Shown here: positions 7,285 through 55,639 of the stretch, piece by piece | Layout: every line of letters begins with the position of its first letter | Numbering within the stretch: position 1 is the stretch's first letter | From: an alpha proteobacterium BAL199 | GTDB lineage: Bacteria; Pseudomonadota; Alphaproteobacteria; Thalassobaculales; Thalassobaculaceae | DNA: 64,000 bases | Assembly (NCBI GenBank): GCA_000171835.1 | Contig: ABHC01000001.1 | Span: 372,001 to 436,000 of the forward strand | Direction of reading: 5' to 3' | Made by a program: the position numbers and the translations under genes | The notes under the pieces: model-generated | The model's database searches: none | What the model was told of the DNA's origin: nothing | Seen by the model: the letters and a program-made list of their open reading frames with translations, nothing else

Positions 7285-7961
7285 TTGCCGAACACGAAAG
7301 CGTAGCGGCCGAGGTCGACCTTGCCGGTTGGCAATTCGTACTCCGCCAAGCGGTCATCGTCGAAGCCTTCGGCCAGTGCAGCCCCGACGATCGCCGGCGT
7401 GCTGCCTTCCAGGATGACCACCCACTCCTGCTTCAAGTCCGCCGGCACCGGCTTGCCCTGGGCCCGCATTCCCTCGGCCACCACGTCGAGGTCGTTCTCC
7501 ATCAGCACTGCGCCGTGCATGCCGGCACGTCCGCCCAGCTCCGGCAGCAGGGAGTCACGCAGCAACTCGCGCAGCGCCGGCTTGTGCTCGTCGGCTGGAA
7601 AGAACCGGGCTAGGCCGGCCGCACCCGAGATGCCGTGCGCCAGATCGACCGTGCAGGTCAGGGTCAGCCGGTCGAAATGGGTGAATTTTGCCATCACCCG
7701 TTTCGACCAGTCGGACTGGTTGCCCAACAGCTTCATGTACTCGGGCGCGCACAGGTCGCGGACCGTATCGGTCTCGTAGGTCGCGAAGTACTTCACCTTG
7801 GTGGCAGAATCCGCTGCCACGTACCGGCGCGCGCGCTTGAAGCCGGGCATGAACACCCGCTCGTCCACATGCTCGCGGTTGTACCACTCGTTGAAGTCCA
7901 TCTCGTCCTGCGGCGCCACCTCAGTGAAGGTGATCAGCATTCCGGTCCCGAGCAGTCCCAT
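7275..7961 (-). CDS. Dimeric alpha/beta-barrel-type protein of a catabolic operon (228 aa)
   Basis: The start is ATG 7961, which follows AGGAGA at the right distance; the ORF extends further upstream only by chance. The N-terminal part (GTGMLITFTEVAPQDEMDFNEWYNREH) has the shape of ferredoxin-like dimeric alpha/beta-barrel proteins, with the F-N-x-W-Y-x-x-E-H pattern known from EthD/DUF-type families. The second half (MHGAVLMENDLD ... EWVVILEG) reads like a second copy of such a domain. It is the last gene of an operon behind a fumarylacetoacetate-hydrolase-family gene, so a role in small-molecule catabolism is likely. The exact substrate cannot be read from sequence. Its 3' end overlaps the phage gene opposite. 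Confidence 0.6.
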   Translation of the reverse strand: MGLLGTGMLITFTEVAPQDEMDFNEWYNREHVDERVFMPGFKRARRYVAADSATKVKYFATYETDTVRDLCAPEYMKLLGNQSDWSKRVMAKFTHFDRLTLTCTVDLAHGISGAAGLARFFPADEHKPALRELLRDSLLPELGGRAGMHGAVLMENDLDVVAEGMRAQGKPVPADLKQEWVVILEGSTPAIVGAALAEGFDDDRLAEYELPTGKVDLGRYAFVFGNHR

Positions 7962-7989
7962 GGTCGTCTCCTGCGGTGCGTGCGAGGCG

Positions 7990-8868
7990 TCAAGCGTCAA
8001 TGAAGGCGGTGCCGTTGGGTTCCGCAATCACCCGGTTCTCGATGTGGCCGAGCCCGTCGATCTCCACCCGCACCACATCGCCCGGCTGCAGGTAGCGCTT
8101 CGGCGTGAAACCCTCGCCGACACCCGGCGGGGTTCCGGTGGTGATGACATCGCCGGGCTCCAACGTTACCGCCTGACTGAGCAGCGCGATCAGGTCGGCG
8201 CAAGTGAATGTCATTTCGGCAGTGGAGGAGTTCTGCCGGACCTCGCCGTTCACCATGGTACGCACCGCCAAGGTCTGGGGGTCCGGCACTGCGTCGGCGG
8301 TGGTCATCCACGGGCCGAACGGGCCGTGAGTGTCAAAGCTCTTCGGGATCACCACCTGCGGGGTCAGGGTCACCCACTCCCGCACCGTCAGGTCGTTGAC
8401 GACGACGTAGCCGGCCACGACCTCGAGCGCCCGTTGCTTCGGCACATGCCGGCAGCGCCGACCGATCACCAGACCAAGCTCGCCTTCGTAGTCGAGCGAG
8501 TCCGATACCCGCGGGCGGTGCACCGGGTCGTATGGGCCGTTGATGCAGCTCGACATCTTGGCGAAGGTCGAGGGGAAGGTGGGCGTCTTGGCGCCGATCT
8601 CTTTGATGTGGTCGGCGTAGTTCAGGCCGACTGCCAGGAACTTCCCGGGGCGCGGCACCGGCGCCTCCAGGCGAACCTCGGACAGCGGTCGGCGCGGCGC
8701 GGTGGCCAGCGCCTTGTCCAGGGCCTTCCGGCCCACCGCACCCAGTTTCAGAAATGCCGTCATGTCGGTTGGGAACATCGGATCGACCGCCGAGACGTCG
8801 GCGATTCGAGCGTCCTCGATGACGCCGATCCGGGTTCGGCCGCCTTCGGTGAAGGTTGCGAGCTTCAT
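7990..8868 (-). CDS. Fumarylacetoacetate hydrolase-family protein (292 aa)
   Basis: AGGAGGG lies just before the ATG. The small N-terminal domain (about 1-70) is followed by the FAH fold, which begins at PGKFLAVGLNYADH (about 83-96). The metal-binding acidic residues can be seen in DYEGELGLVIG (about 125-136) and VNDLTVREW (about 157). The end, TGTPPGVGEGF, is the family's conserved loop. FAH-family enzymes cleave C-C bonds or decarboxylate/isomerise 2-oxo-acid intermediates such as acylpyruvates and oxaloacetate, using Mg2+ or Mn2+. It lies 13 bases after the SHGG-motif gene and 28 before the barrel protein, so the three are one operon. Confidence 0.9.
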   Translation of the reverse strand: MKLATFTEGGRTRIGVIEDARIADVSAVDPMFPTDMTAFLKLGAVGRKALDKALATAPRRPLSEVRLEAPVPRPGKFLAVGLNYADHIKEIGAKTPTFPSTFAKMSSCINGPYDPVHRPRVSDSLDYEGELGLVIGRRCRHVPKQRALEVVAGYVVVNDLTVREWVTLTPQVVIPKSFDTHGPFGPWMTTADAVPDPQTLAVRTMVNGEVRQNSSTAEMTFTCADLIALLSQAVTLEPGDVITTGTPPGVGEGFTPKRYLQPGDVVRVEIDGLGHIENRVIAEPNGTAFIDA

Positions 8869-8881
8869 AGTCCGACCCTCC

Positions 8882-9691
8882 TCAGGCGATCAGCTTGGCG
8901 CAGAAATCCTTGAGCGTCATGCCCTCGGTTCCACCAAGGCGCCGTGCGGTGTCGTTGACCCGGCTGAGCACGCCGTCGTCGTAGCTCGAGCGCGCATCGC
9001 CGATCCGGGCGCTGGTGGCCGTGACGGTTCCTGCGGCAATCCCGCGTTCGTCGAGCGCCGGCAGCCGGCTGAAGCCGCCGCCATCGGCACCCCCTCCGGC
9101 GTCGTTGAAGAACGCGGCATGGCCATCGATCTTCAATGCCGCAGCCTTCTCATTCCCCAGGATGCCGCCGTGCGAGCCGGACACGATGACCTGGCCGACA
9201 TCGCCCGGCCCGACCAACGAGATCGAGTCGACCAGCAGAACGCGCCGGCCGTTCGGTCCGGCCGGTAGTTCCGTTCGCGCCTCGGTGTAGGCCGGCACCG
9301 GTCGGGTCGAGAGCGCTGCCCGGGTCATCGCGTCGGCGGCCGCCGAGCAACTCATGCCAGGATGAACGCCAAGGGCGGTTGCCGTCCGGTTCGCGGTAGA
9401 GATAACGCCGCGCGCCACCATGTCGCCGCCGTTGCCGATCCGGGCCGACATGGTGTCGATCGCGGCATACGGAATGCCAAGTTCGTCGCAGTACGCGCCG
9501 CCGCCGATGCCGGCCTTGTCCTTGCCGATACCAGCATCGTTCAGGATTACGCCGCGAACGCCAGCCTTCACGGCGCAATACGCGGCATATATTCCACCAT
9601 GCGAACCGGCGACCAGTACCGCGCCTTTCCAGGCCTCGGTCGGCCGCGTCACGGTATCGGCGGCAATTACGCCGGCTGGCGTTTCGCCCAT
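8882..9691 (-). CDS. Uncharacterised protein with two SHGG/NDAG/SARIG repeats (269 aa)
   Basis: GGGAGG precedes the ATG. The protein has a clear internal duplication: SHGG at 30-33 and 173-176, NDAG at 51-54 and 196-199, SARIG at 82-86 and 227-231. The spacing is nearly constant within each half, and each half ends with a GVIS/GVLS stretch and an Asn. Small residues dominate and there is no signal peptide. Conserved Ser-His-Gly-Gly and Asn-Asp-Ala-Gly blocks look like active-site or ligand loops, with the two halves forming a pseudo-dimer. I do not recognise a characterised family. It is the first gene of the operon with the FAH-family enzyme, so a step in the same catabolic route is likely. 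Confidence 0.7.
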   Translation of the reverse strand: MGETPAGVIAADTVTRPTEAWKGAVLVAGSHGGIYAAYCAVKAGVRGVILNDAGIGKDKAGIGGGAYCDELGIPYAAIDTMSARIGNGGDMVARGVISTANRTATALGVHPGMSCSAAADAMTRAALSTRPVPAYTEARTELPAGPNGRRVLLVDSISLVGPGDVGQVIVSGSHGGILGNEKAAALKIDGHAAFFNDAGGGADGGGFSRLPALDERGIAAGTVTATSARIGDARSSYDDGVLSRVNDTARRLGGTEGMTLKDFCAKLIA

Positions 9692-9926
9692 GGCATCCTC
9701 CCGGAGAGCGGGGCCGACCGAACGGCGGCCCAGGACTTTTCGCTATCCTGACGGGCGGCGCGGGGTCGGTCCAGGGGTAACGGTCGCGGGGCCGCTCCCG
9801 GCGCCCGACGGCCTCGCTGATCGGGTGGGTGCCGCAGATGAGTTGCAGTTCCTCGGGGTTGCAGCGCACCGCCCCGGCAGCTACGGCAACGGCGAGCGCC
9901 AACCACCCGGCGCCTGGCCTCTCGCG
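9692..9926. other. Intergenic stretch between queF and the SHGG operon, no supported gene
   Basis: These 235 bases are GC-rich, and the frames that run through them on both strands continue into the neighbouring genes as shadows. The promoter of the minus-strand SHGG operon must lie here, with the end of the queF operon upstream of it. I see no clear hairpin followed by T residues and no recognisable RNA gene. Confidence 0.4.
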
Positions 9927-10394
9927 TCACGGCCGTCCGCGGTAGATCGGCACATCCTGCGGCGGGATCCACAGCCCGCGCGGCGGCTCGCCCGACTGGT
10001 AGAACACGTCGATCGGCATGCCGCCGCGCGGATACCAATAGCCGCCGATGCGCAGCCACTTCGGCGCCATCAGCGCTTCCAGCCGCTTGGCGATGTCGAC
10101 CGTACAGCCTTCGTGGAAGGCGCCGTGGTTGCGGAATGATCCAAGATAGAGCTTTAACGACTTGCTCTCGACCAACCAGCCGTCGGGCACGTAGTCGATC
10201 ATCAGGAACGCAAAATCGGGCTGACCGGTCACCGGGCACAGCGAGGTGAACTCCGGCGCGGTGAACCGGACCACGTAGTCGGTTCCGGCGTGCGGGTTCG
10301 CGACCTTCTCCAGCACCGCGGTCTCCGGGGAGTCCGGCATCCGGGTTTCGCCGCCGAGCTGGGTGAGAGTGCGGTAGATGGTTTCATCGGTCAT
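9927..10394 (-). CDS. queF: NADPH-dependent 7-cyano-7-deazaguanine reductase QueF
   Basis: QueF reduces preQ0 to preQ1, the last small-molecule step of queuosine synthesis, in the cytoplasm. I start at ATG 10394, which overlaps the queG stop (ATGA) and follows GGGAG. The 155-aa length fits the short unimodular form. The catalytic Cys53 lies in [10 protein letters not shown] with the partner Asp60, and the signature ESKSLK (76-81) and [10 protein letters not shown] (86-95) supply the NADPH- and substrate-binding residues. It is the last gene of the queuosine operon. Confidence 0.95.
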
Positions 10395-11509
10395 GCTGGA
10401 TCTCCCAGAGCGAGGCGCCACTCGGCGCGGACGTCGTCGTCGGTTTCGGAATCGGCCCGGGCGGCGTTCCGGTGCAGTGCGCCAGACGACAGCCGGGCCA
10501 GCGCCCAGATCGCTATGCCACGGACCAACGGGCTGGCGTCGTCGAGCCGTCGTTCCACGACCGCAACGGCCGAACTGTCGCCGGAGTTTCCAAGCGCAAT
10601 CAGGACGTTGCGCACGAACCGGTCGCGCCCGGTGCGCTTGATCGGCGATCCGGCGAAATACGCTCGGAACGCCGCGTCATCGAGTTCGGCCAGATCGGCC
10701 AGCAGTGGCAGGGTCAGGTCGTCGCGCGGCACGAAAGCCAGCTCTTGCGTGGCAGTCGCGAATTTGTTCCACGGGCAAACCGCCAGGCAGTCGTCGCAGC
10801 CGTAGATCCGGTTGCCCATGGCGACCCGGAATTCCACCGGAATCGAACCTTTGTGCTCGATCGTCAGGTAGCTGATGCAGCGCCGGGCATCCAGCGTGTA
10901 CGGCGTTGGGAACGCGGCCGTTGGGCAGATATCGAGGCATTGCCGACAGGTGCCGCAGTGGTCGACCTCGGCCGCGTCGGCAGGCAGTTCCAGGGTGGTG
11001 AATACTTCGCCGAGAAACAGCCAGGATCCGAAGCCGCGGCTGACCAGATTGGTATGCTTACCCTGCCATCCGATCCCGGCGCGCGCCGCCAGCGGCTTCT
11101 CCATCACCGGCGCAGTATCGACGAACACCTTCACCTCGGCGCCCAGGTCGCTGTGAATCCAGCGTGCCAGCCGTTTGAGGCGTTTTTTCAGCAGGTCGTG
11201 ATAGTCCTTGTTGCGCGCATACACGGCAACCGCGCCGCGGTCCCGCCGCTCTAGATCGTCGAGCGGATCGTGGGCCGGGCCGTAGTTGGCGGCGCAGACA
11301 ATCACGCTGCGCGCCTCGGGCCACAACACCGCCGGGTCTCGCCGCCGATCCAGCTTGTCGGCCATCCAGGCCATCTCGCCGTGTTCGCCGCCGCCGACGA
11401 AAGCGTCCATGCGAGCCTGCTCGCGGCCGCCGATCACCGCGGGCGCAATGCCGACCGCATCGAACCCTAGGGCGAGGGCTTCGGCCTTGATTTGGGTAGA
11501 AAAGGTCAT
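10391..11509 (-). CDS. queG: Epoxyqueuosine reductase QueG
   Basis: QueG reduces epoxyqueuosine to queuosine in tRNA, with cobalamin and two [4Fe-4S] clusters. The protein is 372 aa. The cluster ligands are visible as [12 protein letters not shown] (Cys185, 188, 191, 195) and CDDCLAVCP (Cys238, 241, 245), with a further Cys211. [13 protein letters not shown] (about 127-138) carries the catalytic Asp131. The C-terminal third ([15 protein letters not shown] and onward) is a HEAT-like repeat known from this family. It overlaps queF by 4 bases and lies 28 bases behind the 177-aa unknown gene. Confidence 0.95.
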
Positions 11510-45970: not shown

Positions 45971-46009
45971 GTCCTCGTAGCTCAGCAGGATAGAGCACCA
46001 GATTCCTAA
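45971..46009 (+). pseudogene. 5' half of tRNA-Arg(CCT), left attachment boundary of the island
   Basis: The 39 nt read as an acceptor-stem strand GTCCTCG, TA, D-arm GCTC/GAGC with AGCAGGATA, and an anticodon stem strand CCAGA and loop TTCCTAA. The anticodon is CCT. After this the sequence should continue with TCTGG and a T-arm but turns into AT-rich, unrelated DNA. The gene is therefore broken exactly in the anticodon loop, a common target of tyrosine integrases. Confidence 0.85.
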
Positions 46010-46176
46010 TAACGATACCCATGCCAACATATTGATATAAAATGACAAAATAAACCCAATTCAAAAAGTAAATTAATAGTGAATACGATTTTACCGGCAG
46101 AGTGAACGGTGCCTGGGTTGGTTCAGCTGAGTGGTTTCATCTGCCAAAAAATACGCTATTGTCAGGAAATCGCGTG

Positions 46177-46253
46177 GTCCTCGTAGCTCAGTTGGATAGA
46201 GCGACGGTTTCCTAAACCGTAGGTCGCAGGTTCGAGTCCTGCCGGGGACGCCA
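46177..46253 (+). tRNA. tRNA-Arg (anticodon CCT), with encoded CCA
   Basis: A full cloverleaf can be drawn. Acceptor GTCCTCG pairs with CGGGGAC (two G-T pairs). D-arm GCTC/GAGC. Anticodon stem ACGGT/ACCGT encloses TTCCTAA (anticodon CCT). Variable loop AGGTC. T-arm GCAGG/CCTGC with TTCGAGT. The discriminator G is followed by encoded CCA. It differs from the broken host copy in the D-loop and anticodon stem, so it is not a duplicate of it but an island-borne replacement. Confidence 0.96.
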
Positions 46254-46721: not shown

Positions 46722-47336
46722 TTACTGTCGAGCAACTTTCATAAAGCGTTCAAGATTGGCGAACTCGGAGCTGGCATTCTTCTCAAACAGGTCTGCGTTA
46801 TCTACTCGGATGTGTAGGATCTCATCCTGAATCTGCTTCAGTAAAGATACCAGCTTCGCATAATGTTCACCTGTAAATGATTCAGATTTCAGCGCTGCAT
46901 CGTCGATTCGGATGTTGAACGCAACCTTATAAGCGTCTGGAGCTTTTTGAATCTCACCCTTTTTGATCGCGGAGACGAAAGCAGGCGTAACAGATCCATT
47001 CTCTGGCGCTGCTGAGATCAGCTTATCAAACTGCTCGTCGGTTAGCGTTGTCACCTCGTACAGAGTCGTCCAAGCTTGAACCGTATCAAACAGGGTGGGT
47101 TGCCGAGCAAGGCGGGTATCGCGAGCGATTGCGACGAGTTTGCATGCCTTCGACTTGCTAAAGTTCGCCGCCTTCAAAATCATCTTATAGGAATCGCTAT
47201 CTGTTCCATATTGTTCGGTCGCCGAGAGCAGATGATTTGCGATCCTGCGCCAGGACTGGATCGCAGAGGCAAGCTCGGCATTGATGAGTTCAACAAACTC
47301 AGACGGGTTACGGTGGTTAGAAGTATTAGTCATCAT
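46722..47336 (-). CDS. DUF3102-like phage/plasmid protein (204 aa)
   Basis: The start ATG 47336 has AAAGGA 6 bases upstream. The N-terminal half has FVELINAELASAIQSWRRIANHLLSA and KMILKAANFSKSKACKLVAIARDTRL, and then AWTTLYEVTTLTDEQFDKLI. The W-T-x-L-Y-E-V-x-x-L pattern after a helical DNA-binding-like segment is known from DUF3102 and related plasmid and phage proteins of unknown role. The rest is helical. A palindromic operator directly upstream suggests autoregulation. Confidence 0.6.
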   Translation of the reverse strand: MMTNTSNHRNPSEFVELINAELASAIQSWRRIANHLLSATEQYGTDSDSYKMILKAANFSKSKACKLVAIARDTRLARQPTLFDTVQAWTTLYEVTTLTDEQFDKLISAAPENGSVTPAFVSAIKKGEIQKAPDAYKVAFNIRIDDAALKSESFTGEHYAKLVSLLKQIQDEILHIRVDNADLFEKNASSEFANLERFMKVARQ

Positions 47337-47371: not shown

Positions 47372-47496
47372 CACTCAATATGGTGACTATACGTGGAAAC
47401 GGATTTGATCGATTGTGACAGAACCAATCCCCTCTATCGGGGTTGGTGCTGTCCGAAACGGTTCCGGTCGGAAATCGAGGGTCGAGGCAACCGCCA

Positions 47497-48261
47497 ATGA
47501 CAGAAGCGTGGTCCGGTGATGGGCGATATCTCCTGCCAGCGCGAAAGGTCGAACCGTATCGGCTCTGGTTCGAGTTTCTGAAGGCGGCGTTCCAGGACCC
47601 GGATATCTCGGTTGATCGGCGGCTCTATGCCGATTGGGGGGATGTCGAGGACCTATCGTTCGACGACTGGTGGCGCAGCGGCATCTGGCGGGTGCTGTTC
47701 GCTATCGACACGGCGGTGAGCATCGTGGAGCCGGGATCGGCGCTCGACCCGACGGACGGCACATTGATCGTTCGACTACCGCTCGGTCGCGACCCGAAAG
47801 AGACCCTCCGAGATGTTCGGGATCTGCTGGAGGAGCATGGGGCGAGCGGTTTGGTTGGGAGTTCGAACCGTGGGAGGTTTCGACTGTCCGACGGAGTGGA
47901 ACACGGGTTCCTGCACGCAAACAGATTGGCGTCCGTCCGGTTGATGCTCAGGCTGTACCGAGCGTGGATCGATCATCGTGAGAATGGCACCCGAGAACGG
48001 GTCCAGGCAGCGGCGATGGATGTGTACGATTGGGGGCGAGCGTGGAACGAAAAGGTTCGCGCAAACCGATGGAAGCGTGACCTGACGTACCTGCCTATCT
48101 GCTTTACGACCTGGGTGGGGTATCTGCGGCGCGAAAACCGGCGCGAAGTATGGGAGGGTGATGATCCGGAGTCAGCGCGCCGGCAGGTTCAGCGCTACAT
48201 CTCCCGTGCTCGGGCGATTGCGGCAAACGTCGCTCGCGGTGAGTTTCCGGGAGTGTATTAG
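47497..48261 (+). CDS. Island protein of unknown function with a FDDWW motif (254 aa)
   Basis: I start at ATG 47497 (MTEAWSGDGRYLLPARKVEPY), after GAGGC; the frame is open 18 codons further up. The segment YADWGDVEDLSFDDWWRSGIW (about residues 46-66, the last five being the FDDWW core) is a pattern I have seen in phage and island proteins (a D-W-G-D-V, then F-D-x-W-W). The protein is acidic, with a tryptophan-rich C-terminal half (YDWGRAWNEKVRANRW). GC content is higher here than in neighbouring island genes, near the host level. No function can be given. Confidence 0.6.
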   Translation: MTEAWSGDGRYLLPARKVEPYRLWFEFLKAAFQDPDISVDRRLYADWGDVEDLSFDDWWRSGIWRVLFAIDTAVSIVEPGSALDPTDGTLIVRLPLGRDPKETLRDVRDLLEEHGASGLVGSSNRGRFRLSDGVEHGFLHANRLASVRLMLRLYRAWIDHRENGTRERVQAAAMDVYDWGRAWNEKVRANRWKRDLTYLPICFTTWVGYLRRENRREVWEGDDPESARRQVQRYISRARAIAANVARGEFPGVY

Positions 48262-48391
48262 CGATGCCATCGGAGCGAATGAGCTGTTCCTTTCGCGGCG
48301 CGCAGGTTACGCCACGCCCATCGTGGTCTCTAAAGTTTGGATGTCGGGTATACTCTCTGAACGAGGTTGTTGCTGTGAACGGACGCCGGGA

Positions 48392-49333
48392 ATGACAACG
48401 CCATGCTCTATCAGGGTGTTTCTCGTCGATGGAACGCCGTCGGGAGTAATCACCGCCGATATACCGACATGGACCGGGAAAGTAATATCTGCGCCACGAA
48501 CGCGATTAGGTGATGTGATTAAGCGCAAAGAAACTGAGTCATGTGGCATATATGTTCTCAGTGGTCCAAATATTGAACAACCAGAAAAGCCACTAATTTA
48601 TATTGTTCAGTCAAACAACATAGCGAAACGACTCATTCAACACTCAAAAGATCAATCAAAAGATTTTTGGAATCGAGTAACATTTGTGGTTTATAAAGAT
48701 GAAAATTTAACTGAGTCGCACTCAAGATATTTAGAGATTCGATTATTAAATATATCGAAGCTATCTGGGCGTTCAATTTTGATAAATTCGAATGAACCAG
48801 ATTATAATAATCTTCCGGAACCGGACAAGGCGGACATGGAGTACTTCATAGATCGATGTCGTCTGATATTTCCGGTGGTAGGTGTGGATATTTTGCACAC
48901 AAAAGCGACCAGTGCGACTGCTTATAGTGATCAGAATAGCGGTGATGTTTCTGATGAATTTGTCGAATTTGAAATTGATGGTGTTAATGTGCAAGCAAAA
49001 ATGAAAATTGTAGAAGGAGAATTTATCGTATTGAAGGGATCGCGGGCGAGGAAAATCGGCACTCCGTCGTGGGTTAGGACGTATTCCAAAAAGGCGCGTG
49101 ACAAGATTATTGAGTCAGGGTTGTTAAAGTTAGAGGAAGGTGGTGAATATTACGTATTTGTAGATGACGTTGCATTCAAAACTCCAACGGCAGCTGCCGA
49201 AGCCGTTCTCGCGCGCTCAGAAAATGGTCGAACCGGATGGAAGCTAAAAAACAGTAAATTGACCTTGGCGCAGTGGGAACAAAATGTAATTACTAAAGTA
49301 GAAAATTCAAATGACTCATCAACACCCATGTAA
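48392..49333 (+). CDS. GIY-YIG nuclease-fold protein with a C-terminal DUF4357 domain (313 aa)
   Basis: I use ATG 48392 (MTTPCSIRVFLVDGTPSG). A TATACT box at 48350 suggests the transcript starts after the upstream in-frame ATGs. GIY (52-54) is followed by IYIVQSNNIAKRLIQHSKDQ, where YIG has become YIV, with Arg80 and a later Glu in RYLEIRLL (about 112). The C-terminal 60 residues are DUF4357 (IGTPSWVRTYSKKARDK, FKTPTAAAEAVLARSENGRTGWKL). This domain pair occurs in proteins near restriction-modification and mobile elements. AT-rich codons mark it as acquired. Confidence 0.8.
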   Translation: MTTPCSIRVFLVDGTPSGVITADIPTWTGKVISAPRTRLGDVIKRKETESCGIYVLSGPNIEQPEKPLIYIVQSNNIAKRLIQHSKDQSKDFWNRVTFVVYKDENLTESHSRYLEIRLLNISKLSGRSILINSNEPDYNNLPEPDKADMEYFIDRCRLIFPVVGVDILHTKATSATAYSDQNSGDVSDEFVEFEIDGVNVQAKMKIVEGEFIVLKGSRARKIGTPSWVRTYSKKARDKIIESGLLKLEEGGEYYVFVDDVAFKTPTAAAEAVLARSENGRTGWKLKNSKLTLAQWEQNVITKVENSNDSSTPM

Positions 49334-50542: not shown

Positions 50543-50737
50543 TTGGCAGTTCATCAATTCCTATTCAATATTCCGTTAGATATCTGGCGCGAGATCGATC
50601 TGTTTTGCGGAAATCGCCGGATTCCGAGAACAAGATTTCTAGTCGAGGCGACGCGAAGGTATCTTGCCGACGCCCGGTCTTCCGGCAAGGGTGGTTGGCG
50701 TTCCTGGGACCAGGACGACTCTGGCACAGGGTTGTAG
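50543..50737 (+). CDS. Ribbon-helix-helix-type small DNA-binding protein (64 aa)
   Basis: The start is TTG 50543, 8 bases after TAGGAGA; no ATG suits the frame. The pattern VHQFLFNIPLDIWREIDLFCGNRR-IPRTRFLVEATRRYL (split) is the beta-alpha-alpha layout of CopG/MobA-type regulators, with the beta strand at residues 3-10 and the second helix starting after RTR. The tail is short and polar. It precedes the nuclease gene by 37 bases, so the two may form a unit. Confidence 0.6.
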   Translation: MAVHQFLFNIPLDIWREIDLFCGNRRIPRTRFLVEATRRYLADARSSGKGGWRSWDQDDSGTGL

Positions 50738-50774
50738 GGTCGGTCATCGTTTCCGACCGGAAATCGGGAGGCGG

Positions 50775-51146
50775 ATGGTGAACCGAGCGATTTGCCTGAT
50801 CGTCCTTATCAGTCTTGGACCCTGGATCGCAGGTGCCACTGAGGCGCGGGATCGTGCTTTCATCAACTACGATGGCGACACATTTCGCGCCACCTTTCGC
50901 ATCGCGAACATCGACACACCTGAGATCGAGGGCAAGTGCGAGGCAGAACGGGATCTCGCTCAGAAAGCGAAGCTGTTCACCGAGCGATTCCTTGCTCGAG
51001 GCGATGTTGTGATCCGACAGACTGGAGTTGATCGGTACGGTCGCATCCTGGCGCTCGTGACCTCTGACGGGCGGGATCTCGGCGAGGCGTTGGTCGCAGC
51101 TGGGTTGGCGCGACCCTGGATGGGGCGACGTGAAAAGTGGTGTTGA
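50775..51146 (+). CDS. Secreted staphylococcal-nuclease-like protein (123 aa)
   Basis: GGGAGG stands at the start. A signal peptide (AICLIVLISLGPWIAGATEA) leads to a short SNase domain: INYDGDTFRATFRIANIDTPEIEGKC (about 30-55) has the metal-binding Asp, the active Arg and Glu, and DRYGRILALV (about 85-94) the second Arg. At about 100 residues it is shorter than classic thermonuclease and ends in ARPWMGRREKWC. It would degrade nucleic acid outside the cytoplasm. Such genes are common on integrated and conjugative elements. Confidence 0.82.
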   Translation: MVNRAICLIVLISLGPWIAGATEARDRAFINYDGDTFRATFRIANIDTPEIEGKCEAERDLAQKAKLFTERFLARGDVVIRQTGVDRYGRILALVTSDGRDLGEALVAAGLARPWMGRREKWC

Positions 51147-51386: not shown

Positions 51387-51920
51387 ATGGAAATATTCGG
51401 TGAGTTTCTACTAGAACTGAACCCGTGGTGGTTCGCGGCGATTGGGTTATTGCTGATTGTTATTGATGGAACGATACTTTCATCAGGGGTGTTTCTGTTT
51501 CTTGGCATTTCTGTGTTTTTGCTATTGGCGCCTAGAATGTTAACTGAAAGTCCCTTTATAATGTCATGGTCTTTTCCAGCAGCACTATTTATAAGTTATG
51601 TTGGGCATAAAAAATTAATGAAAATTTTATTTAGAAACTCTGAGCAATTTAATCCCGGCGAAAAAATCATTGGAAGAGAGGGTAAAATCATAGAAGTTCA
51701 CAATTCAAATGCTTCCACCGAAAGTTTCTATGCATATAAAGCAAATATTCCACACGAAGTGACCGTCACGCAAAAATCTGACGTTACATTACGTGTAACT
51801 CTCGATGATGGAAAAATATTGCCAATTACAAATCCATCAGACTTAAAGGTTAATGAAGTGGTGCAAGTTGTCGATTTTGATGGGATCAACGCAACTGTAA
51901 GGAGAAAACAAAGTGTCTAA
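51387..51920 (+). CDS. NfeD-family membrane protein (177 aa)
   Basis: The ATG follows AAGAGCAG. Three membrane spans occupy residues 10-75 (WWFAAIGLLLIVIDGTIL, VFLFLGISVFLLLAP, WSFPAALFISYVG). The C-terminal part is an OB-fold-type domain (IIGREGKIIEV at the start, VNEVVQVVDFDGINATVRRK at the end). This is the short NfeD type, which works beside SPFH proteins in membrane microdomains. It overlaps the next gene by 8 bases. The AT-rich codons are unlike the host's. Confidence 0.85.
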   Translation: MEIFGEFLLELNPWWFAAIGLLLIVIDGTILSSGVFLFLGISVFLLLAPRMLTESPFIMSWSFPAALFISYVGHKKLMKILFRNSEQFNPGEKIIGREGKIIEVHNSNASTESFYAYKANIPHEVTVTQKSDVTLRVTLDDGKILPITNPSDLKVNEVVQVVDFDGINATVRRKQSV

Positions 51921-52992
51921 CCTGAGTTCAATCATCATCGACCCTCAACTGCTAACGGTTGCGTTAATATCTTTAATATTTCTGCTTATCCTGTTTTCGG
52001 GAATTCAGAAGGTTCCAGATGGAAATGCTAGAGTCGTGGAGCGTCTTGGAAAAAGACACAGAACGATTCGACCGGGGATTTCTTTTATAATACCATTTGT
52101 CGACTCGATCAAAAAGCGTGGCGTCGTTCTCGATACGTATCTGGAAAATGGCTCGTCGAAGCTAAGTTTAATAGACAGCAAGGGAAATATTTCAATTGCT
52201 GAGAACAGGATGGACCCAAAAGAGTTAAAGTTACTCGGAAAAGATAATAGCGAAATTTATGTTGATTCGGTCGCTTATTTTAAAATTTCTGATCCGATTA
52301 AAGCGGTCTACGATATCTCTTCCCTTTCAGATTCATTTTTGAGTCTAATTGAAACGACGTTAAGACAAGAGGTTGGAAAGCTGGATGGGGACACGGTCGT
52401 TACCTCGCGTGATATTCTTAGTGATCGACTACGTGAATCTTTGCAGGCGGCGGCGACGAATTGGGGAATCACGGTTTTTCGTGTCGAAATCGAGGACATA
52501 CGGTTCGACGATGAGGTTTCTAAAAGGCTATCAGACGCCAGAAAAGAGGAATTAGTTCGTAGAGCAGAGCTTGTATCTGCACAGGCAGTCGCAGACCAAA
52601 AAGTGATCGAAGCAGAAGCAGAGAAAAAAGCAAAAGTGCTCCAAGCAGAGGGTGAAAGGCAAGCAGAAATCACAAGGGCGGAAGGGGAAAAGCAGGCGCA
52701 GATTTTGAGAGCAGAAGGCTTGTTTGAAGAGCAGCGGTTGCAAGCCGAGGCGCATTTTTTGCTCCAGTCAAGAGAGCAAGAGGGTGTGGCTAAAGGCTAT
52801 TCAGCGATTGTTGAGGCGATATCTGCGAACTCAGATGCCGTGATCGCTCTCGAGCAAGTAAAGGCGCAGATCAAAGTAGCCGAGAGTTTAGGTAATTCAG
52901 GTAATGCACTGATTATACCTGCAGAGGCGGCAGGTTTGTTCGGTGCAGTATCTGCTGCAATAAAGAGCTTCGAGCAGATTACAAAAAAATGA
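51913..52992 (+). CDS. SPFH/Band-7 (stomatin/paraslipin-like) protein (359 aa)
   Basis: The start is GTG 51913 behind AAGGAG. One membrane span (LLTVALISLIFLLILFSG, about 13-30) leads to the PHB domain (VPDGNARVVERLGKRHRTIRPGISFIIPFVD; YVDSVAYFKISDPIKAVYDI; TLRQEVGKLDGDTV; LQAAATNWGITVFRVEIEDI). A long coiled coil with AEAEKKAKVLQAEGERQAE-type repeats follows (about 215-290). The C-terminal part is Ala/Gly-rich. The protein would form rings or scaffolds in the membrane together with NfeD. Its placement on an integrative island is unusual. Confidence 0.9.
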   Translation: MSNLSSIIIDPQLLTVALISLIFLLILFSGIQKVPDGNARVVERLGKRHRTIRPGISFIIPFVDSIKKRGVVLDTYLENGSSKLSLIDSKGNISIAENRMDPKELKLLGKDNSEIYVDSVAYFKISDPIKAVYDISSLSDSFLSLIETTLRQEVGKLDGDTVVTSRDILSDRLRESLQAAATNWGITVFRVEIEDIRFDDEVSKRLSDARKEELVRRAELVSAQAVADQKVIEAEAEKKAKVLQAEGERQAEITRAEGEKQAQILRAEGLFEEQRLQAEAHFLLQSREQEGVAKGYSAIVEAISANSDAVIALEQVKAQIKVAESLGNSGNALIIPAEAAGLFGAVSAAIKSFEQITKK

Positions 52993-53004
52993 ATACATGA
53001 TCGG

Positions 53005-54216
53005 TTACTTCTTGTGGGTCGCTATCTTCGTTATCTCTGACACATTCCGAGGATCGCTGGTTCGCTTCTTGCCGTAGTACATCTCGATCATATCGACCGA
53101 TGTGCCCATGTTGGAAGCGAGTTGGTAGACGTTGACGCCCTCGGCGATCCGCATGGTCGCGTAGGTGTGGCGGAGGGAGTACGGGACGCGCTTCTGCCCG
53201 TTGTCCTGGAACAGCAACCCGCACTCGCTCATCACCCGCTCGAACCCCTTCTTGAAGGAGTGGATGGGTTCTCCGTCGCGGTTGCAGAACACGACCTCGG
53301 ATGACGGAGGTTCGTGCCCGAGTTCGTCCGTTCGGAAGTCTCGCAACCGCTTGAGGTAGGTTTCGACGCCGGCGTTGGCGATCACCAGCCTCGGACCCGT
53401 CTTGCCCGACACGGAGATCGATACCCGCGCCTCGCCCTCGACCGTTCGAACTTCACCGATGTCGGACCAGCGAACATTCCTCATCTCACCGACGCGGATG
53501 CCAGTGTTGCCGAGAATGAGAATCCAGTGCTGGAGGTAGAACCTCTCCCGGTGTCGGCGCTTGTCCTGCGCCTGACCGACGTAGCGACGGAGATAGGTGT
53601 ACAGAGTTTGCCATTCCTCGCGGGTGATGTCCGGTCTCGGTGACACCTTCATCTTCGGTTGGGGAACGTCCGGGGCGTTGGCGATGTATCCCTTGCGCTT
53701 CGCGTAGGTGAGGATGTGCCGCAGCACGGTTCCCTCGTGGCGGAGGGTCACATTCGACGGGACCGGATCGGCACTCTGGCGACTGACGAAGTAGTCGACC
53801 ATCAGGTTCTCATCGACCCGTTCGACAGGCGTCTTGCCGAAGAACGGAACCAGATACAACTCGCCGCGCCGGATGTTGCCGGTGATGTACGAGTCCGATC
53901 GCCCGCGCATGGTCGCTGGATACTCCTTGCGCCACTCGTCGAAGACCTTCTGAAAGGGCTTCGCCCGGATGGTCTCGCCGCGCCGCGATCTGCCCTCCAG
54001 CTGGTAGTACAGATCCTCGCTGAAACGCCTCGCTTCGTAGAAGTCGGTGGTGCGGCAGGATTTGACGATGTACCCGGTACCACCTGGCACCTTGATCCGG
54101 ACGTTCCACCGCGGATTTCCGTGATCCTTGCGCTTGTAGAGCACGATCCGACCGTCACCCCGCAGATCGGTGTAGTCGGCGTAGGATTTGTGGTCGGCGT
54201 CAGCAGGCATGAGCAC
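53005..54216 (-). CDS. Tyrosine recombinase/integrase of the island (403 aa)
   Basis: The N-terminal arm and core-binding domains (to about residue 190) contain SDSYITGNIRRGELYLVPFFGK. The catalytic part has Arg241 (NTGIRVGEMRNVRW), Lys272 (VSGKTGPR), PYSLRHTYATMRI with Arg349 and His350 (the usual first His is Tyr346) and MIEMYYGKK with the nucleophile Tyr near 380. The GTS in place of GHS is common in one integrase branch. The start overlaps the truncated resolvase's end by 17 bases (ATG 54216 or 54210). It presumably catalysed entry into the tRNA-Arg. Confidence 0.93.
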   Translation of the reverse strand: MLMPADADHKSYADYTDLRGDGRIVLYKRKDHGNPRWNVRIKVPGGTGYIVKSCRTTDFYEARRFSEDLYYQLEGRSRRGETIRAKPFQKVFDEWRKEYPATMRGRSDSYITGNIRRGELYLVPFFGKTPVERVDENLMVDYFVSRQSADPVPSNVTLRHEGTVLRHILTYAKRKGYIANAPDVPQPKMKVSPRPDITREEWQTLYTYLRRYVGQAQDKRRHRERFYLQHWILILGNTGIRVGEMRNVRWSDIGEVRTVEGEARVSISVSGKTGPRLVIANAGVETYLKRLRDFRTDELGHEPPSSEVVFCNRDGEPIHSFKKGFERVMSECGLLFQDNGQKRVPYSLRHTYATMRIAEGVNVYQLASNMGTSVDMIEMYYGKKRTSDPRNVSEITKIATHKK

Positions 54217-54546
54217 GATCCATCGTCAGAACCTTGTACACGGTTGACCGCGATACCGGCACTCGAGCGGCAATCGCGGTCAGTCCGAGACCATCATCCT
54301 TCAGGCGCCAGATATCCCGGACCAGCGCATCGCTGATCTTGGTCGGTTGACCGAGTTTCTTGCCCTGGTCGCGGACGCGCTTCAGTCCGAGTTTCACCCG
54401 CTCCGAGATCATCGACCGTTCGAACTCGGCGAAAACCCCGACCATCTGGAACATCATCCGACCGGATGGTGTCGAGGTATCGAGTCCCTGCTGGTGAATG
54501 AACAGGTCGCATCCGACCGCCTGCACATCGTTCAGGAACTCGATCA
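54200..54546 (-). pseudogene. Serine recombinase/resolvase, N-terminus removed by the IS6 element
   Basis: The surviving frame holds the C-terminal half of a resolvase: LIEFLNDVQAVGCDLFIHQQGLDTSTPSG, MMFQMVGVFAEFERSMISERVKLGLKRVRDQGKK (split) and the Hin-like helix-turn-helix (ALVRDIWRLKDDGLGLTAIA, VSRSTVYKVL). The catalytic N-terminal Ser region is absent, because at 54547 the frame enters the IS inverted repeat. The frame only appears to continue through IS sequence. It therefore cannot be a functional recombinase. Confidence 0.85.
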
Positions 54547-55366
54547 GGGGTGTTGTCACGTTAACTCGTCGAGTTAGCAAGTTGGCATGCCGGTCGTTGA
54601 TCAAGCGGCATGTGCCGCGGATTTCCAAGCTTCGAACGCTTCGAGCCGATGGTAGCGAATGGTGAGGGCGGAACGACGGCGGGCTGGGACAGAGTAACGA
54701 TTGCGGGTTGCGGATTGCATAGACACGAAGCGTTGTAATCCACCCGGTGATCGGAAGCCTTGCATCACCCGCTCTCGTTTTCGGAAGGGCAAGTGGCTGT
54801 TCTCGGCGCGGTTATTGAGCCCCTTGTGTGACCAATGATCAAGGCCAGGCGCGACCTCGCGCTTGGCGGCCCCATATGAGCGCAGTTTGTCCGTAATGAT
54901 CCTTTTGGGCACGAAGCCCCAACGTTTCATCAGCTTGATCAAAAGCCGCTTTGCAGCGCGCTTGTCTCGCTTCGATTGTAAGATTTCCTCAAGAACGACA
55001 CCGTGTTGGTCGACGGCGCGCCACAGCCAGTATGACCGGCCCGCGATCTTCACGACGACTTCGTCCAGATGCCAAACATCACCAGGGCGAGGCTGCCGTC
55101 GCCGCAGAACGTGGGCGATCCGGGGACCGAACTTGACGGTCCAGCGCCGGATCGTCTCATACGAAACGTCCACACCACGTTCCAGCATAAGCTCCTCGAC
55201 CTCGCGCAGGCTCAAGTTGAACCGGGCGTAGAGCCAGACAACATGAGAAATGATCTGAGGCGGAAAGCGGTGGCGCTTGTAGCTGATTTTCTCTGTTTGC
55301 ATCGACACCGCCTACGCCCGGATCATTGAACCCGCAACCTCAGGCACGTTAACGTGACAACACCCC
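54547..55366 (-). mobile_element. IS6-family element, no target duplication
   Basis: The element is 820 bp with perfect 19-bp inverted ends, GGGGTGTTGTCACGTTAAC (54547-54565) and its complement at 55348-55366. The match even extends three bases outward. The 8 bases on each side, CTCGATCA and TGAAAGGC, do not match, so no target duplication is seen, which fits an IS6-type adjacent deletion or recombination. It sits at the join between the truncated resolvase and host DNA. Confidence 0.88.
54601..55308 (-). CDS. IS6-family transposase (235 aa)
   Basis: The protein opens with the IS6 start (HRFPPQIISHVVWLYARF) and an HTH-like SLREVEELMLERGVDVSYETIRRW. The DDE residues appear in DVWHLDEVVVKIAG (first Asp, about 80), IITDKLRSYGAAKRE (second Asp, about 140) and NNRAENSHLPFRKRERVMQGF with the Glu (about 174). 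The frame is complete, so the element could still be active. Confidence 0.94.
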   Translation of the reverse strand: MSMQTEKISYKRHRFPPQIISHVVWLYARFNLSLREVEELMLERGVDVSYETIRRWTVKFGPRIAHVLRRRQPRPGDVWHLDEVVVKIAGRSYWLWRAVDQHGVVLEEILQSKRDKRAAKRLLIKLMKRWGFVPKRIITDKLRSYGAAKREVAPGLDHWSHKGLNNRAENSHLPFRKRERVMQGFRSPGGLQRFVSMQSATRNRYSVPARRRSALTIRYHRLEAFEAWKSAAHAA

Positions 55367-55639
55367 TGAAAGGCCTGCGTCGGTTCGGCCGCGCCTGGAC
55401 GGGAGTTCCTTGACATCGCGCCGGAAGCTGGGGTTCAAGCGCTCGCACAGCCAGACGGCAGGTTGGACAACCGACGGCTCGTTGTGGACACCCGCGCGAG
55501 GCCGGCTTCGTGGTTCAACGGCTCAGGCGGATGCCGCATGCTGCAAGACGTTCGCATACCAATGCCTTGTGATAATCTCCGGCGACGGTGGCCAGCGCCA
55601 CCAAACGCGTAACATTCTCCAGCCGAAGGAGGCCGCCTG
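55367..55639. other. Host DNA beyond the IS6 edge, with a truncated gene end
   Basis: Directly after the IS a plus-strand frame reads LKGLRRFGRAWTGVP then TGA at 55411-55413. This looks like the last codons of a host gene whose front was lost. The rest, about 225 bases, holds the promoter of the CoA-transferase genes: TGTGATAAT at 55568-55576 is a good extended -10, followed by GGAGG. No tRNA 3' half is seen here. Confidence 0.45.

Follow-up and report, generated by a model that had tools for sequence, protein, structure and literature searches.

A pair of overlapping genes encoding an NfeD-like protein and an SPFH protein is horizontally acquired cargo of a genomic island in the alphaproteobacterium BAL199, distinct from the core SPFH–NfeD pair that the same cell carries. 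It is a genuine divergent member of a known two-protein family, and we consider it very probable that its products constitute an accessory NfeD–SPFH membrane complex of the QmcA–YbbJ kind. The pair lies in a window of 64,000 nucleotides (contig ABHC01000001.1), to which all coordinates refer unless another sequence is named.

A damaged island at a tRNA-Arg gene

Between 46 and 53 kb of the window, the GC content drops from about 65% to 44–52%. A 40-nt 5' fragment of the host tRNA-Arg(CCT) gene (45971–46010, plus strand) marks the left junction of this segment; it agrees at every position with the intact gene in a genome from the same genus and is cut in the anticodon loop after TTCCTAA. Shortly downstream, the island carries a complete tRNA-Arg(CCT) gene of its own (46177–46253, plus strand; 86% identical to the same-genus gene), the only complete CCT copy that a similarity search found in the 69-contig assembly. 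The host gene is thus broken in its anticodon loop, and the complete, divergent gene comes from the island. Loss of the island might deprive the cell of tRNA-Arg(CCT), which could stabilise the element.

At the opposite end, a tyrosine recombinase gene on the minus strand (53005–54216) represents the island integrase; its distant relatives occur in other genomes, some of them adjoining tRNA-Arg genes. It is followed by a resolvase remnant lacking its N-terminal part (54200–54628, minus strand). An IS6/IS240-type insertion sequence (54544–55369, minus strand), bounded by perfect inverted repeats of 22 bp, cuts this remnant and marks the damaged right end, and a search of the assembly did not recover the host 3' half of the tRNA gene, expected at the right attachment site. 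The island is thus genuine, yet damaged, with a clear left junction and a right end cut by the insertion sequence. A second copy of the IS6/IS240-type transposase gene lies on contig 61 (locus L028, 12967–13674), about 5 kb from the host core SPFH–NfeD pair.

The island carries further cargo. Two open reading frames of 204 aa (46722–47336, minus strand) and 272 aa (47443–48261, plus strand) gave no match in Pfam or NCBIfam. Next to them lies a gene for a GIY-YIG/DUF4357 protein (48158–49333, plus strand; start codon uncertain), about 2 kb from the pair; on plasmids, its relatives overlap with annotations of restriction endonuclease subunit S. From 49.4 to 50.6 kb, long intervals lack clear genes. 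No recognised transfer genes were present on the island. An SNase-like nuclease frame (50664–51146, plus strand; true start uncertain) precedes the pair, and the position between a nuclease and the integrase that a sequence-only reading had assigned to the pair was thus borne out.

The same reading had described a small, overlapping and AT-rich gene pair, and the reading frames agree with it in position, overlap and composition. The NfeD-like frame (51387–51920, plus strand; 177 aa) starts with ATG at 51387, and the SPFH/stomatin-like frame (51913–52992, plus strand; 359 aa), a paraslipin of the QmcA type, starts with GTG at 51913, giving an overlap of 8 bp. A ribosome-binding-like AAGGAG is located shortly 5' of this GTG within the 3' end of nfeD (51900–51920, plus strand). 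Together, overlap and motif suggest that the two genes may be translated in a coupled manner. The longest open stretch at the pair comprises 363 codons, a length not due to chance, since 500 shuffled versions of this DNA reached at most 169. GC content is 37% in nfeD and 45% in the SPFH gene, with third-position values (GC3) of 0.33 and 0.42 versus 0.82–0.88 in neighbouring host genes. A search in the vicinity of the pair revealed no sigma-70-like promoter.

Identity of the two proteins

The SPFH protein matches the Pfam family Band_7 with an E-value of 3.4e-28. Its AlphaFold2 (AF2) model (pLDDT 80) comprises an N-terminal membrane helix, consistent with a hydrophobic N-terminus, an SPFH domain, a helix of about 105 residues and C-terminal helices, and both results place it in the SPFH/Band 7 superfamily. 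Within this superfamily, sequence and fold assign it to the SPFH1a/paraslipin (QmcA) type. The top Foldseek match of the model was QmcA (8z5g_A, E = 7e-19), the top sequence match in the PDB was also 8z5g (1.4e-35), and QmcA scored better than HflK/C, flotillin and prohibitin. Consistent with this, the protein fell far under the cut-off of the NCBIfam models for HflK, HflC and FloT.

Several features set the protein apart from its relatives. A 22-residue insertion where the coiled coil begins (residues 209–230; 52537–52602, plus strand) is absent from all 30 aligned relatives, and the nearly invariant PP that follows the SPFH core in the alignment is missing. A loop insertion between SPFH strands, on the other hand, is common to several proteins from pairs in which nfeD comes first. 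Most invariant residues of the family are kept, as is the predicted fold.

The partner required a different line of evidence. With an E-value of 0.005 and 17.4 bits against a gathering cut-off of 29.1, the Pfam NfeD match remained below the threshold, so that the name needed other support, and a plain sequence search of the PDB gave no match. A profile built from paired NfeD proteins recognised the protein at 6.7e-7 and 15.6 bits, values obtained with filters off and a database of this single sequence. The AF2 model (pLDDT 79) predicts three membrane helices besides a short N-terminal helix, followed by a five-stranded OB-fold, which is the multi-helix membrane region with C-terminal OB-fold of the NfeD family. 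YbbJ was the first structural match of this model (8z5g_AA, 1.1e-5), followed by the NfeD domains 3wwv and 3cp0 and, two ranks lower, 2exd. With 177 aa and no N-terminal ClpP protease domain, the protein is not of the long, ClpP-type NfeD1b class. The near-invariant tryptophan of the OB-fold is missing. With the Pfam match below its threshold, the name NfeD rests on the predicted fold, on the pairing with an SPFH gene and on a profile match of low score. Since the models of two adjacent genes match both partners of one complex, QmcA–YbbJ, these predictions make a strong case that the genes encode a short-type NfeD–SPFH pair, lacking ClpP.

QmcA–YbbJ of E. coli (SPFH1a–NfeD1a, a paraslipin with a short NfeD; PDB 8z5g) is thus the best structural match for both subunits. 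The two systems share adjacent, overlapping genes and the same domain order within each protein. The island pair differs in its reversed, NfeD-first gene order and its location on an island, in the low identity of the structural alignments (28% for SPFH, 15% for NfeD), and in the extra coiled-coil segment, the loop insertion and the missing PP motif of its SPFH protein.

Relation to the host core pair and origin

The host genome encodes six SPFH genes. Four of them form two adjacent pairs, which are probably HflK/HflC-like; one belongs to the core paraslipin–NfeD pair and one to the island. The core pair (contig 61, about 149.7–151.5 kb) likewise couples SPFH with NfeD in the same cell, but it is SPFH-first and common to the genus, and its SPFH protein is only 27% identical to that of the island. 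In the one same-genus genome examined, the tRNA-Arg(CCT) site is intact and the core pair is present in the gene order opposite to that of the island pair. None of the relatives examined contains the island pair, as an ordinary chromosomal unit or otherwise; these relatives, like the members of the class and phylum that were sampled, have distant SPFH genes only, mostly paired with NfeD. Together with the tRNA-Arg context, this upholds the proposal of the sequence-only reading that the pair is island cargo and not part of the core genome.

Close homologues were not found in wider searches either. Among the matches listed in an exact-peptide-pattern scan of about 85,000 species genomes, no orthologue exceeded 37% identity, and plasmids, phages and viral contigs (IMG/VR) held no close copies of the pair above the same value. 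The island NfeD had no match in the 146 genomes searched apart from its own. The matches listed in the scan, the best at 37%, were mainly NfeD-first pairs from Bacteroidota, Bacillota and KSB1, with some SPFH-first pairs from Alphaproteobacteria. An NfeD gene adjoins nearly all of the nearest relatives of the island SPFH, and SPFH–NfeD adjacency is known to mark the SPFH1/NfeD1 groups (PMC2636767). The NfeD-first paraslipin pairs (e.g. those of Defluviitalea and of a KSB1 member) share the gene order of the island pair, give the best sequence scores to its SPFH protein among the matches listed (34–36%) and in several members possess a similar insertion between SPFH strands, but no homologue of the other island genes lies near them and no supported grouping with the island SPFH was obtained.

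In phylogenetic analysis, the branch of the island SPFH reached about 4 changes per column and lay outside the SPFH-first clade that holds the host copy (support 99/98), without a supported nearest neighbour; the protein did not group with the proteobacterial paraslipins of the host lineage. Owing to the long branch, its placement with any donor phylum was unsupported. Because this branch is long, the PP motif and the NfeD tryptophan are lost and a 22-residue segment has been gained, the function of the pair may have shifted from the family norm. The search for conserved company suggested by the sequence-only reading came back empty: none of the 80 homologue loci shared an island neighbour, and the same cargo was found beside none of the seven related integrases.

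Pairs on other mobile elements and candidate roles

That NfeD–SPFH pairs ride on mobile elements is not new. The conjugative IncI2 plasmid NZ_CP010220.1 carries an SPFH–NfeD pair (8941–10399) just upstream of its type IV secretion genes, and NfeD and SPFH genes of this enterobacterial IncI2 type occur in 536 and 550 plasmid records, respectively, 514 of them conjugative in each count. On the Candidatus Manganitrophus plasmid CP114559.1, an overlapping NfeD–paraslipin pair (7484–8945) follows shortly after TraG and a lytic transglycosylase gene. Further NfeD–SPFH pairs are present on plasmids of Vibrio, Acinetobacter and Pontibacillus, and an SPFH gene stands alone on an IncT plasmid. The Salmonella plasmid NZ_CP149222 was rejected as a mobile example, as its pair belongs to a chromosomal segment on the plasmid (ybbP, cueR, copA). 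A full-text search of the openly licensed literature found no paper on IncI2 with SPFH or on conjugative plasmids with NfeD. As the IncI2-type plasmids show, SPFH and NfeD genes occur outside core genomes too, which amends the view that they normally belong to the core. The IncI2 pair resembles the island pair in being borne by a mobile element; it differs in being SPFH-first, in its membership of the QmcA clade and in its position beside type IV secretion genes, and the two are not closely related.

These plasmid contexts invite the explanation that the pair is a conjugative left-over, which would have helped a donor or recipient membrane to house type IV secretion or entry machinery before the island lost its transfer genes. 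The neighbourhoods of the IncI2 and Manganitrophus pairs, the 514 conjugative records in each count and the IncT SPFH gene agree with such a past, but no recognised transfer gene is left on the island, the trees do not bring its SPFH protein close to the plasmid versions, and in A. tumefaciens type IV secretion did not depend on any of the three SPFH proteins tested (PMC8656257). We regard this explanation as unlikely. Similarly doubtful to us is the broader idea of a recurrent mobile-element module, shared by IncI2-type backbones, the IncT SPFH gene, other conjugative plasmids and tRNA islands, that would re-organise the membrane of the recipient in favour of transfer, establishment or protection, the island pair being a highly divergent lineage of it.

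A role in anti-phage defence or envelope protection, in which the pair would sense or patch membrane damage from phage entry or lysis proteins, draws on the small island that it shares with the GIY-YIG/DUF4357 protein. This neighbour is a PADLOC candidate (PDC-S14, 1.5e-96) and is the only support from the island itself; its relatives are annotated together with restriction subunits on plasmids. In B. subtilis, YdjI, an SPFH protein, connects PspA with the membrane (PMC8581546). PADLOC matched neither NfeD nor the SPFH protein to a known defence system, however, and no full-text paper in the openly licensed literature was found to join SPFH with defence islands, so that a defence role is not supported; the distance of about 2 kb to the GIY-YIG gene and the lack of any island neighbour conserved with homologues also speak against it, and we judge it improbable. 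The pair could instead be a passive passenger that is decaying after its import and has no selected role. This would suit an island with a lost right end, a cut resolvase and a gene-poor interval at 49.4–50.6 kb, as well as the lack of a promoter-like site near the pair. Both frames are nevertheless intact, with a clean overlap and a translation signal, and the retention of most invariant residues and the fold on so divergent a branch argues for past selection on the pair. Mere passage thus also appears rather improbable.

By analogy with characterised complexes, the likeliest role of the pair, to which we give about an even chance, is an accessory one in membrane-protein quality control. QmcA–YbbJ is described as a cage of 26 heterodimers that sits on the inner membrane and faces the cytoplasm (Tan et al. 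2024, as summarised in PMC13086221), and in staphylococci FloA–NfeD binds unfolded proteins, capturing and stabilising them, while NfeD braces the arms of the oligomer (PMC11222466). If the island proteins behave like their family, the SPFH protein would be anchored in the inner membrane, its long helices assembling on the side of the cytoplasm to form a ring or cage, while NfeD would insert beside it and brace the SPFH arms with its OB-fold. Such a cage would confine and stabilise membrane or unfolded proteins and may tune quality control of the FtsH type. An extra, divergent copy could add envelope-stress tolerance or house specific clients, with the host complex not being replaced.

Debate continues over what SPFH–NfeD complexes do in bacteria, and knock-outs of core copies often have mild phenotypes. 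A copy on a mobile element is small and self-contained and is missing from siblings, which allows a clean comparison of cells with and without the pair. If plasmid-borne pairs are important for transfer or establishment, they would give SPFH–NfeD scaffolds a testable job, and this wider pattern of pairs in conjugative backbones adds more interest than the island pair itself.
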